Part shown: positions 10,993-16,108 of the stretch, piece by piece
How the letters are laid out: every line of letters starts with the position of its first letter
How positions within the stretch are numbered: the first letter of the stretch is position 1
NCBI GenBank assembly: GCA_020846135.1
Contig: JADLEK010000076.1
Span: forward strand, 1 to 64,000
DNA: 64,000 bases
From: Gammaproteobacteria bacterium
GTDB taxonomy: Bacteria; Pseudomonadota; Gammaproteobacteria; Competibacterales; Competibacteraceae
Direction: 5' to 3'
Made by a program: the position numbers and the translations under genes
Notes under the pieces: model-generated
Databases searched by the model: none
Told to the model about the DNA's origin: nothing
The model's input: only the letters and a program-made list of their open reading frames with translations

Positions 10993-11808
10993 TTAGCGGC
11001 TAAACCTGCGCAAGCAGGCCAGACTGTAGGCCAGCGCCTTGCTCATATCCCGTTGCCGCCGCAGATAAAACCGGGCGGCGGAATCGGGATGCCAACCCAC
11101 CCGAATCCCCAGAATGTCGGGATGCTCCAGGCGGAAGACCGCTTCATCGGTGTCATCATCGCCAAAGAAGATCGCCCGGCCAACGCCCTGTTCCGCCATG
11201 AGCCGCAGCAAGGCGCTGCCTTTGTTGGTCTCGGTATCGGGGAACAGGTTAACCACCCGTTTGCCACCGCTGACCTGCGGGGCCGGCTGTAATCCGGCTA
11301 CGGCGGCGGTGACTGCCGCCAGCGCCTGATCGGGATCGGCCACGTTGCGGTAGTGCAGCGTCAGGGTGTACTGCTTGTCCTCGACCCACACCCCCGGCAG
11401 ATCAACCTGCCCCCCGCTCCAGCGCCGGGACCAGCCCGCCGGGGCGACCGTCGGCAAGGGCGCGACCTGCAATTGCTCCAGCCAGCCGTTCACCAGGTTC
11501 TGCGCCCGTTGCAATTCGGGGCGGGTCGGATCGCCCCAGTCCAGCCCGTGATTGCCGATCATGAAATCGACGTCCACCCCATCCAGCAGGGTTGCCAGTT
11601 CGGGCCGATGCCGCCCGGACAGGATCGCCACCGGGACGTATTGGCGCAGGCGGCGCACCAGCGTCTGGATATTCGCGGCCAGCAGCGCCTCGCGGGGATC
11701 GTTGGCCAGCGTGGTCAACGTGCCGTCATAGTCCAGGGCGAACAGCGGACGCTGGCGACACCATTCGCGCAAGGCCGCGATGCCGGTTTTGGAAAAAAAA
11801 GGTTGCAC
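10993..11808 (-). CDS. otsB: Trehalose-6-phosphate phosphatase
   Basis: This HAD-superfamily phosphatase (271 residues) makes trehalose from trehalose-6-phosphate in the cytoplasm. Visible motifs are DYDGTLTTL (nucleophile and acid/base aspartates) near residue 25, LSGRHRPEL, a NHGLDW stretch, and the C-terminal Mg-binding GDDDTDEAVF near 218. The length and motif order agree with OtsB. It lies 29 bases downstream of otsA on the same strand, so the two steps of the OtsAB pathway are co-transcribed. Trehalose is an osmoprotectant and in some bacteria a carbon store. Confidence 0.94.
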   Translation of the reverse strand: MQPFFSKTGIAALREWCRQRPLFALDYDGTLTTLANDPREALLAANIQTLVRRLRQYVPVAILSGRHRPELATLLDGVDVDFMIGNHGLDWGDPTRPELQRAQNLVNGWLEQLQVAPLPTVAPAGWSRRWSGGQVDLPGVWVEDKQYTLTLHYRNVADPDQALAAVTAAVAGLQPAPQVSGGKRVVNLFPDTETNKGSALLRLMAEQGVGRAIFFGDDDTDEAVFRLEHPDILGIRVGWHPDSAARFYLRRQRDMSKALAYSLACLRRFSR

Positions 11809-11837: not shown

Positions 11838-14192
11838 TCAGGAGGGTTCTTTGAGTAGCGGCGCATTCGCGCCCAGGCTGGACAGCTTGAGGGCGAAGCG
11901 GTTTTTCCGACGCACCGCCGCCGCATCAAGCAACATCCGCCCGGCCCAGCGGAAGATATTAAATTCACTGACATAACTCCGCATGGCGTGCATCCGTTCC
12001 CGCTGTTCAGTTTCGGGCATGGACAAGGCGACATGCAGCGCCTCGGCGCATTGCTCAATATCGTAAGGATTCACGATCAGCGCCTCGGTCAGTTCCCGCG
12101 AGGCCCCGGCAAACATGCTGAGAATCAACACACCTTGCTCATCATCGCGAGCGGACAGATATTCCTTGGCGACCAGATTCATCCCGTCATGCAGGCTGCT
12201 GACCAGGCACAGCACGGCGGCGCGGAAATACTGAAACACATCAACCGGCTCATGGTGTTCGATCTTGAGGATGATCGGCAGATAACGGCCATCGCCATAC
12301 TTGATATTGACCTGCTCGGCCATGGCCCGCACCTCGGCGTCAAAGTGCTGATAGGCCGGCAGCGAGGAGCGTGACGGCGCGGCAATCTGGACAAAAGCAA
12401 ACTGCCCAATCCATTCCGGGTGTTTCTCCAGCAACCGTTCGATGGCGCGGAATCGTTCGACAATGCCCTTGGTGTAGTCGAGCCGGTCAACCCCGACCCC
12501 GATCCGGACGCCGTCAGGAATGTTGTCGCGGGCATGAATCCGCAGGCGGCAGTCCGGGCCGGGCGGCACCTCGGCCAGCCAGCGCGGCGGCCATTCAATC
12601 GAGATCGGGTAGGGCCGCACTAGGGTCATTTTGCCGTTGTAGGAGATCGATGAGGTCTCCCGTTCGATCCGCGATTCCAGAAACCGATCTACCGTGTCGA
12701 TGAAATTGTTGGCGTGATAGCGGGTATGGAAGCCCATGATGGTGCTGCCGAGCAGTCCTTCCAGAATCGCTTCCCGCCACGGGCAGATGCCGAAAACTTC
12801 CTGATTCGGCCAGGGAATGTGCCAGAAGGTGATAATGGTCGCCTGTGGCAACTGAGCGCGAATCATCTGCGGCAATAGCGCAAAGTGGTAATCCTGAATC
12901 AGCACCACCGGGTCGGCGCTCCGCGCATCCCGCACCACCGCATCAGCGAATTTCTGGTTGACCTTGATGTATTCCTCCCAGTCCGAACCCCGGAAAACCG
13001 GACGGGTATGGGCGATATGGCACAGCGGCCACAACCCCTCGTTGGAAAAGCCGTAGTAGTAACCCAGTTCCTCGTCCTTGCTCAGCCACACCCGGTGAAT
13101 TTCATACTGCGGATCATCGGGTGGCACCCGGACCCGGTCGCGTTCATCGACCACCTCACGGTCAGCCGAGCCGTTGCCATGCGCCACCCACACCCCGGAA
13201 CAGGCGCGAACAATCGGCTCCATCGCCGTCACCAGCCCGCTGGCCGGAAAATGAACCTCAATCGTGTTGCCGACCCGGCTGTGGATGTAGGGCTGGCGGT
13301 TGGACACCACAATCACTTCATCGCCGGACAGTTCGTTGGACAGGATTTCACGCAGTTTTTGCGGGGTCCAGTGCAGTTGCAGGTCATCGCGGATGGCGCG
13401 GTTATCTTCCAGATCCCGCATCAGGTTTTTGATGTCGCGCAGGATCGGCTGAAATTCCCGATGCTGGGGCGCCACCGGATCATTCGCGGCGCTGGGTTTA
13501 CGCGCCTCGTTAAGCAAGGTTCGCATCGAGTTCATCCATTCCCGGCGACTCCAGCGCACCATGATCAGCGCTACCAGCGAGGTGACAACCCCAATGATCA
13601 GGATCAACGCGATCAGGTAATTGCGGGTGTCGGCGCTGCGCCGGGCGGCTACGCTCAGATCATGGACCATGATTAACTGGCCCAGGATCGCAGCCGGCGC
13701 GGCGGCGTCCGTACCAGCGGTTTCCTCAGCGGCCATTGGCGCTACCCACATGGTGTCGGTAGTGAAATGATAGGTTTGGCCCTTGATGGTTTTGACGATC
13801 AGATTCAGGGTTTCATCATCAGTCGCCTGATCGGCCACCTTAACGGAGGGATCCGGTGTAGGCAGGCTCTGACAGCTCAGGTCGGCGGGAAACAGCACCG
13901 TCTTGAATTCCAGAACCTGATTGGCGTTGCAATAGCCCATCGCCAGAATCCGTTCATCCTGAGCCACCTTGTCCAGCAGCGCCTGAATAATGGTTTTGCG
14001 TTCCCGCCCTTTCAGCAACAGCAAGGGCCGCAGGCTTTCCTGAAGGGTGCCGAGCACCAGTTGGCTGCGCCGTTCCAGATCACTGACAAACCAGCGCCGG
14101 GTGATCAGGTCAACCGCGGGAACCAGCAGCGCACCGCCGATCCCTAAGACTACGATCAGCGGGATCACGAATTTCAGCATCAGTTTCACCAA
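11838..14192 (-). CDS. otsA: Trehalose-6-phosphate synthase with N-terminal membrane sensor-like module
   Basis: The 784-residue protein is much longer than a plain OtsA (about 470). Residues 291 to the end form the GT20 trehalose-6-phosphate synthase, which joins UDP-glucose to glucose-6-phosphate. Motifs are VVSNRQP near 295, FWHIPWPN, RLDYTKGI and HDGMNLVAKEY. The first 290 residues are extra. A membrane helix lies at about 7-27, a non-cytoplasmic region of about 160 residues at 28-190, a second helix at about 192-212, and a charged helical linker follows. This is the layout of a histidine-kinase or chemoreceptor input module, so the synthase is probably membrane-anchored and may respond to an extracytoplasmic signal (inference). 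It is the first gene of an otsA-otsB unit and is divergent from the GH15 gene. Confidence 0.93.
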   Translation of the reverse strand: MVKLMLKFVIPLIVVLGIGGALLVPAVDLITRRWFVSDLERRSQLVLGTLQESLRPLLLLKGRERKTIIQALLDKVAQDERILAMGYCNANQVLEFKTVLFPADLSCQSLPTPDPSVKVADQATDDETLNLIVKTIKGQTYHFTTDTMWVAPMAAEETAGTDAAAPAAILGQLIMVHDLSVAARRSADTRNYLIALILIIGVVTSLVALIMVRWSRREWMNSMRTLLNEARKPSAANDPVAPQHREFQPILRDIKNLMRDLEDNRAIRDDLQLHWTPQKLREILSNELSGDEVIVVSNRQPYIHSRVGNTIEVHFPASGLVTAMEPIVRACSGVWVAHGNGSADREVVDERDRVRVPPDDPQYEIHRVWLSKDEELGYYYGFSNEGLWPLCHIAHTRPVFRGSDWEEYIKVNQKFADAVVRDARSADPVVLIQDYHFALLPQMIRAQLPQATIITFWHIPWPNQEVFGICPWREAILEGLLGSTIMGFHTRYHANNFIDTVDRFLESRIERETSSISYNGKMTLVRPYPISIEWPPRWLAEVPPGPDCRLRIHARDNIPDGVRIGVGVDRLDYTKGIVERFRAIERLLEKHPEWIGQFAFVQIAAPSRSSLPAYQHFDAEVRAMAEQVNIKYGDGRYLPIILKIEHHEPVDVFQYFRAAVLCLVSSLHDGMNLVAKEYLSARDDEQGVLILSMFAGASRELTEALIVNPYDIEQCAEALHVALSMPETEQRERMHAMRSYVSEFNIFRWAGRMLLDAAAVRRKNRFALKLSSLGANAPLLKEPS

Positions 14193-14195
14193 GCC

Positions 14196-14313
14196 TCCTA
14201 CCGCATAATTTGGAGTGGATGTTCAGCCTCCAGCAACACACATGTCCCGCTGTATATACGACTTACCGCAGTCCTACCGCATAATTTGGAGTGGATGTTC
14301 AGCCTCCAGCAAC
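14196..14313. repeat. 42-bp perfect direct repeat in the otsA/GH15 divergent region
   Basis: Positions 14196-14237 and 14272-14313 are identical over 42 bases (beginning TCCTACCGCATAATTTGG), with 34 bases between them. The pair occupies most of the 145-base gap between the divergent otsA and GH15 starts and includes an AT-rich TAATTT core in each copy. It may be a recent tandem duplication, or duplicated promoter or operator sites for the two trehalose/glucan transcription units. Confidence 0.85.
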
Positions 14314-14337: not shown

Positions 14338-16108
14338 ATGTATCCCTACGCCATCATCGGCAATTGCCAGGTCAGCGCCCTGGTGAGCGAACAGGCCAGC
14401 ATTGACTGGTACTGCGCGCCGCGCCCGGATTCGGAACCGCTGTTTGGTCGGCTGCTCGATCCGGCTGGCGGTCATTTTACCTTGGCGGCGCCCCATCCCG
14501 ATCAGGTCGTCCAAAGTTATATCGAGAATACCTAATGTGCTGGAGACCCGGTTTACCGACGCCGCAGGCAACAGCCTGGCGGTGATCGATTTTGCGCCCT
14601 GCTTTGAACAGTACGGGCGGATGTACCGGCCCACCCTGCTGATTCGCATCATCCGCCCGCTCAACGGCGCGCCGCAGGTGGTGGCCTCCTGCCAGCCGGT
14701 GCGCGGCTGGAGCAAGCAGCCGCTACAACCCCGGCGCGGCAACAGTCATCTCGATTTTCCCGGACTGAGCGATGAACTGCGCCTGACCACCACCATGCCG
14801 CTGACCTATTTGCTGGACGGCGCGCCGGTGGTCGTCACCCAGCCGCTTTATTTCGCCTTCACCTGGGGGATTCCGGTGCAGGACGATCTGCCGTTCGTTT
14901 GCGAATCGTTTCTGCAAAAGACCATCCAGCACTGGCGCTACTGGGTCAAGCACTGCTCGATTCCCAGCCAGTTCCAGCGCGAAGTGATCCGCTCGGCGCT
15001 GACCCTGAAACTGCACTGCTATGAGGAAACCGGGGCGATTCTGGCGGCGATCACCACCAGTCTGCCGGAGGAAATCGGTGGGGTTCGCAACTGGGATTAC
15101 CGCTACTGCTGGCTGCGCGATGCCTGCTTCATCGTCTCGGCGTTCTACCGCCTGGGGCATTTTGCCGAACTGGAAGGGCTGTTGCTGTTCCTGCTCAATG
15201 TGTTGCAACGCGACGACGGCCAACGGCTCCATCCGGTCTACAAGGTGGACGGCAGCTTGCCGCTGCCGGAACTGAGCCTGGATCACTGGGAAGGTTATCA
15301 GCACAGCCGCCCGGTGCGGGTGGGCAATCAGGCGGCGGAACATATCCAGAATGATGTGTACGGCGAAGTGCTGCTGACCCTGGCCCCGCTGTATTTCGAT
15401 GACCGTTTTTCCTATCTGCGCTCGGAACGGTACGCCGCCATTTTCCACCGGCTGGCAGCGCAGGCGTATCAGGCGCTGACCGAACCGGACGCCGGGTTGT
15501 GGGAACAGCGCGATGGCTGGAAAGTGCATTCCTTCACGCTGCTGATGTCCTGGGCGGGCCTGGATCGGTATGTACGACTGCTGGAGGAACAGCGGATCAG
15601 CGGCGATCTGGCCGAGGCGACCGGCTGGCGCGACGCCGCTTATCAGGCGCTGTTGCAGGCCGCGCATCAGGGCGTCATCACCAATAGCCCCAGCGATCCC
15701 AGCCCGGACGCTTCGCTGTTGCTGTTGCCGGGGGTGCGGTTCCCGGTGACCGCGATCAACCGCGATACAGTGGCGGCGATTCAGGCGCAGTTGGGAGCTG
15801 ATTCGGACCATGCGGAACTGCCGGCTTTTCTGTACCGCTATCGGCGTCAGGACGATTTTGGCCGCCCGGCGCACGCTTTTCTGATCTGCACCTACTGGCT
15901 GGTTGAGGCGCTGGCGCAGCTGGGCGAGCCGGATCAGGCGCGGGACATCCTGCAACGCTCCCTGGCGGCCAATCGGCTGGGGTTGTGTGCCGAGCATTTT
16001 GACCCGGCCCACCAGCAGCAGACCGACAACTTCCCGCAGTGTTATTCGCACGTCGGCCTGATCAACGGCGCGTTTGCGGTCAGCCCGCCGTGGGCCGACA
16101 TTCTCTGA
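14338..16108 (+). pseudogene. GH15 glucoamylase/trehalase-like gene with a single frameshift
   Basis: ATG at 14338 (MYPYAIIGN) starts a typical bacterial GH15 protein with IDWYCAPRPDSE, FGRLLDP and SYIENT. The frame stops at TAA 14533-14535. The next frame continues at once with NVLETRF and runs to TGA at 16106-16108. It carries the family blocks PEEIGGVRNWDYRYCWLRDA, HIQNDVYGE and a C-terminal CAEHFDP motif. Dropping one T at 14533 gives IENTNVLETRF and a full-length product of about 589 residues. GH15 enzymes hydrolyse alpha-glucans, and some split trehalose. With otsAB divergent from it, a trehalose or glycogen role is plausible. It is either a recent mutation or a sequencing error, because the downstream frame shows no other damage. 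Confidence 0.85.

Follow-up and report, generated by a model that had tools for sequence, protein, structure and literature searches.

Within a 64,000-nucleotide stretch of the genome of a wastewater-type bacterium of the Competibacteraceae (hereafter the window), we identified a minus-strand gene whose product is probably a one-piece receptor-enzyme, in which a Cache-type sensor with two transmembrane (TM) helices is joined to a GT20 glycosyltransferase output, so that an extracytoplasmic cue would set trehalose-6-phosphate (T6P) synthesis. At the level of sequence, the gene is established as one frame with a conserved layout, intact catalytic positions and an adjacent otsB; dimerization, the direction of control, the signal and T6P as the product are what we infer. 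Both halves are of known kinds, and it is their combination that appears to be new.

Reading frame, start codon and conservation

The minus-strand frame at 11838-14192, counted from a TTG at 14192, comprises 784 codons. The fusion described in the earlier note was borne out, with the start corrected to GTG 14189; the resulting gene (11838..14189, stop 11838-11840) encodes a membrane-module T6P synthase (TPS) of 783 amino acids, with the TTG chosen by the earlier note lying in frame. GTG 14189 is most likely the translation start, rather than TTG 14192, because the bases 5' of it read TAGGAGG-CTTG-GTG, placing an AGGAGG ribosome-binding site (14194..14199, minus strand) 4 nt ahead of the GTG, and because 14 of 20 relatives have an ATG aligned exactly to this codon. 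Residues are numbered from GTG 14189 except where TTG numbering is named. Directly upstream of the start is a perfect 42-bp direct repeat (14196-14237 and 14272-14313, 76 bp from start to start), which overlaps the ribosome-binding site; exact copies of it are absent from the related loci L002, L003, L004 and L023.

The gene is the sole GT20 gene of the source genome. Searches of genome contigs with tblastn recovered 29 confirmed related loci, 25 of them with the N-terminal module (match starting at residue <=30), including one (L028) with a frame break around residue 463. The other four are three loci cut by contig ends (L019, L024 and L030) and one from Eisenbacteria (L027) that is without the module. 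Carriers are found in Beta-, Gamma- and Alphaproteobacteria, Bdellovibrionota/Oligoflexia, a metagenome-assembled genome (MAG) labeled Myxococcota and an Acidobacteriota MAG; the MAG labels Synechococcaceae (L004) and Bordetella parapertussis (L007) are perhaps wrong, the latter being a suspicion only. In a 21-row alignment of genes with the same type of module as that of the window (type I, as distinct from a second type, II), invariant residues occur in the N-terminal and catalytic halves alike. Across the ten pairs among the window, L002, L003, L023 and L004, dN/dS is 0.107-0.192 for the N-terminal module and 0.047-0.071 for the catalytic part, these being rough ratios as dS ranges from 0.2 to 1.7 and is partly near saturation. 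By these estimates the module is under in-frame purifying selection. The frame is not a chance one, since GC3 is similar across both halves of the gene (0.72 and 0.74), 25 of the 29 tblastn relatives share the N-terminal module and the dN/dS of the latter is low; a chance open frame, or a misassembly joining two genes, is excluded by conservation across independent genomes.

The N-terminal membrane module

Two hydrophobic segments, separated by about 165 residues, have their best 19-residue spans at residues 8-26 (TM1, 14112..14168; hydropathy 2.57, within the helix 2-57 of the models) and 193-211 (TM2, 13557..13613; hydropathy 3.06, with positive residues after it), both on the minus strand. 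A charged, helical cytoplasmic linker (residues 212-288, 13326..13556, minus strand), with invariant W274, L279 and L287, then reaches to about residue 288 and runs into the catalytic domain. The N-terminal side of TM1 carries a net charge of +1 to +3 in all 26 module rows (18 of type I and 8 of type II), and the segment after TM2 does so in 23 of the 26, being neutral in three. Because of this positive charge before TM1 and after TM2, both termini are predicted to be cytoplasmic, which fits an N-in/C-in topology. One type I fused TPS (L043/L051, G248:C53) has an in-frame loss of TM2 with the catalytic domain kept; the loss, if real, would alter the topology, and the same genome holds an intact type II gene (L073).

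Between the two TM helices lies a putative extracytoplasmic Cache-like domain (residues 28-190, 13620..14108, minus strand), with two helices followed by five strands and the invariant Cys87 and Cys106. The module modeled alone from 18 rows has a mean pLDDT of 75.9, with residues 116-127 below 50, and we place moderate confidence in the model. It comprises helices at 2-57 and 62-78, strands at 81-88, 93-96, 130-135, 138-149 and 167-176, and a helix at 179-229; this predicted structure has the long N-terminal helix, second helix and five-stranded sheet, set between two TM helices, by which we recognize the Cache fold. Its top structural match is an integrative whole-protein model of WalK (Z 12.9, rmsd 15.0, 224 aligned residues), followed by crystal structures of the input domains of WalK (4ywz_B; Z 11.3, rmsd 2.8, 131 aligned), YycG (5is1; Z 11.0, rmsd 2.9, 123 aligned), LuxQ (2hj9_D; Z 10.7, rmsd 2.7, 118 aligned) and CitA (8biy_A; Z 10.4, rmsd 2.8, 114 aligned). 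Foldseek gave modest E-values, with 8e-4 for 4ywz_B and four rows at or below 0.001.

In sequence searches, the module of the window matches no Pfam family above cut-off, Cache families included. The 18 type I rows yielded no Cache or HAMP matches other than weak ones, to CHASE4 in two rows and to SMP_2 in three (best E 0.005). Searching PDB sequences with the module profile returned no meaningful match. A HAMP linker was accordingly rejected for type I, and among type II rows one of eight matched HAMP after TM2, at E 0.11 and below cut-off. Type II rows match dCache_1 in four of eight cases, with a best E of 8e-6 and, in one row, 24.7 of the 45 bits needed, which is below cut-off. Profiles of the periplasmic parts of the two types align with each other (hhalign 97.1%, E 6.9e-11, 138 columns). 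The residues W33, D37, R41, R80, C87, C106, D177 and R184 are invariant in the periplasmic part of the 21-row type I alignment, and the two cysteines are missing from all eight type II rows; no ligand-binding motif was recognized in the module. A search for the module in other proteins, as the earlier note had advised, found a histidine kinase (L048, E 1.4e-5, with HisKA/HATPase present) and a receptor-like frame (L113, E 4e-5), along with the weaker L049, L114 and L115; all eight class loci at E <1e-20 are TPS fusions. Taken as modeled, the module is predicted to adopt a Cache/PAS-like sensor fold. The claim that the N-terminal region is of sensor type and not part of OtsA thus gains support from the input domains of sensor kinases and chemoreceptors that its predicted fold matches, and from the type II profile match. 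The earlier note as a whole is upheld in this structural part, and its further proposal, that osmotic or other input controls trehalose synthesis, is plausible.

A fold of 165 residues, with eight invariant residues and a dN/dS of 0.10-0.22 in the periplasmic part, exceeds the needs of an anchor, and the module is kept in two types. The main rival to a sensory role is nonetheless that the module is a mere membrane anchor or scaffold, which would hold the synthase close to a channel or transporter of the inner membrane, and that its Cache-like domain does not signal. Consistent with this are the lack of TM2 in L043/L051 and the rate of change of the periplasmic part, which evolves fastest (dN between the window and near relatives of 0.27-0.29, versus 0.02-0.06 for the catalytic part); rapid change is usual in the ligand domains of receptors. 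As the periplasmic residues are conserved, we consider a plain anchor the less likely reading, though one with an appreciable minority share of the probability.

If the protein is instead a receptor with an enzymatic output, the cue might be a small molecule, the ionic or osmotic state, or the redox state of the two cysteines, any of which would alter a Cache dimer. As in Cache-type kinases, TM2 and the linker helices would relay the movement to the catalytic domain, whose T6P output would rise or fall, and the adjacent phosphatase OtsB would complete trehalose. A piston-type movement of TM2 is described for DcuS (PMC7857512).

The catalytic half and its gene neighborhood

The GT20 domain occupies residues 289-764 (11898..13325, minus strand), as assigned from PF00982, structure and substrate-site residues. 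The PF00982 match has an E-value of 3.2e-118 and 395.9 bits against a cut-off of 32.5, and covers residues 292-754 in TTG numbering and profile positions 2-468 of 473. In an AlphaFold2 model of the whole protein (21 aligned rows; mean pLDDT 81.6, pTM 0.66), solved structures of TPS enzymes align with the catalytic half at Z 37-45, among them the E. coli enzyme (1gz5_A; Z 43.7, rmsd 2.2, 447 aligned). Comparison was made at 15 positions that we take to be the substrate contacts of E. coli OtsA, and 14 of them are the same in the window; the exception, Gly22 of OtsA, corresponds to Ser317, and serine occupies this site in each of the 20 type I relatives checked, and so in 21 of 21 rows of that type. 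The score against the OtsA equivalog TIGR02400 is 412.6 bits, short of its cut-off of 564.85, and the PRK14501 cut-off was likewise missed. Because the equivalog cut-off was missed, we file the enzyme as GT20 with T6P synthesis as its likely reaction; by these comparisons the catalytic half is likely a T6P synthase.

The trehalose-6-phosphate phosphatase gene otsB (10993..11808, minus strand; TIGR00685 93 bits against a cut-off of 68, PF02358 E 2e-23) begins 29 bp beyond the TPS stop on the same strand, and many relatives of both types have a same-strand OtsB match within 170 bp downstream of the TPS. The position of this TPP-family gene, immediately after the TPS both here and in many relatives, and the 14 retained substrate-site positions argue against the reading that the GT20 half, still governed by the sensor, is a relative of T6P synthase with different substrates. 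We hold that reading to be quite improbable, even though it would accord with the missed TIGR02400 and PRK14501 cut-offs, with the serine in place of Gly22 in every type I row and with a branch separate from 31 of the 32 other TPS.

An internal start near residue 280, which the earlier note had named as the finding that would undo a fusion, was looked for, and no start with a ribosome site is present there. The possibility of two products, a sensor-like protein plus a soluble OtsA initiated internally around residue 280-290, is very slight: ATG 257 and GTG 292, 294 and 295 do occur in frame, but no start codon lies between ATG 257 and GTG 292, none of the starts listed at residues 180 to 345 has a Shine-Dalgarno sequence as good as the AGGAGG of GTG 14189, GTG 292 and the following starts fall within the strand that opens the catalytic fold in the predicted model, and W274, L279 and L287 of the linker are invariant across the join, where the frame is open in all 21 aligned rows.

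A divergent GH15 gene (14338..16108, plus strand) is broken near 14530, whether by sequencing error or by decay, its first 65 residues being in a different frame from the rest; a relative at L003 reads through. Many loci have GH15 divergent from, upstream of or downstream of the TPS. By analogy with Ramlibacter, whose GH15 is called a candidate intracellular trehalase (PMC3164672), the GH15 neighbor is likely a trehalase. Since the source genome also encodes TreS-maltokinase, TreY and TreZ, the fused TPS is, on gene content, one of several trehalose routes within a glycogen-rich metabolism. Besides these genes, contigs C7, C25, C28, C36, C44 and C53 of the source genome hold three GlgB-type and two GlgX-type genes, an expanded glycogen/trehalose set.

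A strong match to MscS lies directly upstream of the type II genes L076 and L077, and near the type I gene L028. In L076 and L077 the MscS-family channel gene extends to the TPS start, a possible osmotic operon. As a hallmark of the fused TPS this adjacency was rejected, MscS being also found beside ordinary TPS (L055-L058, L060), and the best match of the source genome to that MscS is on a different contig from the TPS.

Relation to known systems and distribution

The protein shares with OtsA/GT20 TPS (E. coli OtsA; Mycobacterium thermoresistibile 5jio, Z 45.5, rmsd 2.1, 455 aligned) the fold, the substrate-site residues and a neighboring TPP. The known enzymes of this kind, however, are soluble and without TM or sensor regions, the solved chains being mostly of about 450-500 residues, whereas the window protein clusters separately and misses the OtsA equivalog cut-off. 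With Cache-type receptors, namely the WalK, DctB and CitA/DcuS kinases and chemoreceptors, it shares the layout TM1-Cache-TM2-cytoplasmic helix and the predicted input fold, but its output is a biosynthetic glycosyltransferase. Cache protein architectures have known signal-transduction outputs except for SMP_2, in a survey whose models were derived from sequences chosen beforehand for outputs of that kind (PMC4822843). Control of TPS at the protein level, with an adjoining mechanosensitive-channel gene, is seen in the TPSP-GT-MSC operon of Thermoproteus tenax, where a TPS-TPP fusion is switched on by a separate glycosyltransferase and the available text mentions no sensor domain in the enzyme (PMC3634074). 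The otsB-GH15-otsA cluster of Ramlibacter tataouinensis groups TPS, TPP and GH15 as at the window locus, and the excerpted account does not speak of a membrane module (PMC3164672). A full-text literature search, with most subscription papers and preprints outside its scope, found no account of a TPS joined to TM segments or to a sensor. Databases may hold fused TPS under the plain enzyme name.

The control of bacterial trehalose synthesis is usually discussed in terms of transcription and metabolite supply. If our reading is true, a sensor joined to the synthase would offer a direct and fast route from the environment to an osmoprotectant, and Cache receptors would gain a biosynthetic output. 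The fused TPS is also relevant to how glycogen-accumulating sludge bacteria store carbon.

A quick IQ-TREE phylogeny (483 columns, midpoint root) was built from 74 catalytic domains, after removal of nine loci that duplicated genes already included, of L028 and L030 because they are broken or cut short, and of L089, whose alignment was too partial. In it, types I and II group away from 31 of the 32 remaining TPS; caution is due because the long branch leading to L063 and two others joins the fused cluster. SH-aLRT support is 100 for type I (34 rows), 99 for type II (8 rows), 81 for both together and 99 for both with L027. The fused enzymes thus appear to form a separate GT20 branch, which is not proof of a single fusion event.

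In the class sample of 369 genomes, GT20 was matched in 53 and above cut-off in 49. All 46 full-length GT20 genes were classed, from 44 of the 49 genomes, the other five having fragments or a split divergent match only: 14 carry the two-TM module, one is the type I gene without TM2 and 31 have no TM before the domain. The fused form is accordingly present in 14 of the 44 class genomes with full-length GT20, and a phylum sample of 398 genomes added three further type I genes (L110-L112). The tallies by the N-terminal module profile (14 of 369 in the class, 7 of 398 in the phylum and 7 of 59 relatives) are undercounts, as the profile misses most type II genes. We give about even chances to the broader proposal that such proteins are widespread one-component receptors with a compatible-solute enzyme as output, in which the signal gates T6P synthesis directly, without passing through a kinase, a second messenger or transcription, and that they are the usual TPS of glycogen-accumulating Competibacteraceae. 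Among the 59 relatives, 37 genomes are of the window's family, its own included, and 20 of these have GT20: six of type I, 12 of type II, one without the module (G016) and one cut by a contig end (G017), so that 18 of the 20 bear the fused form.
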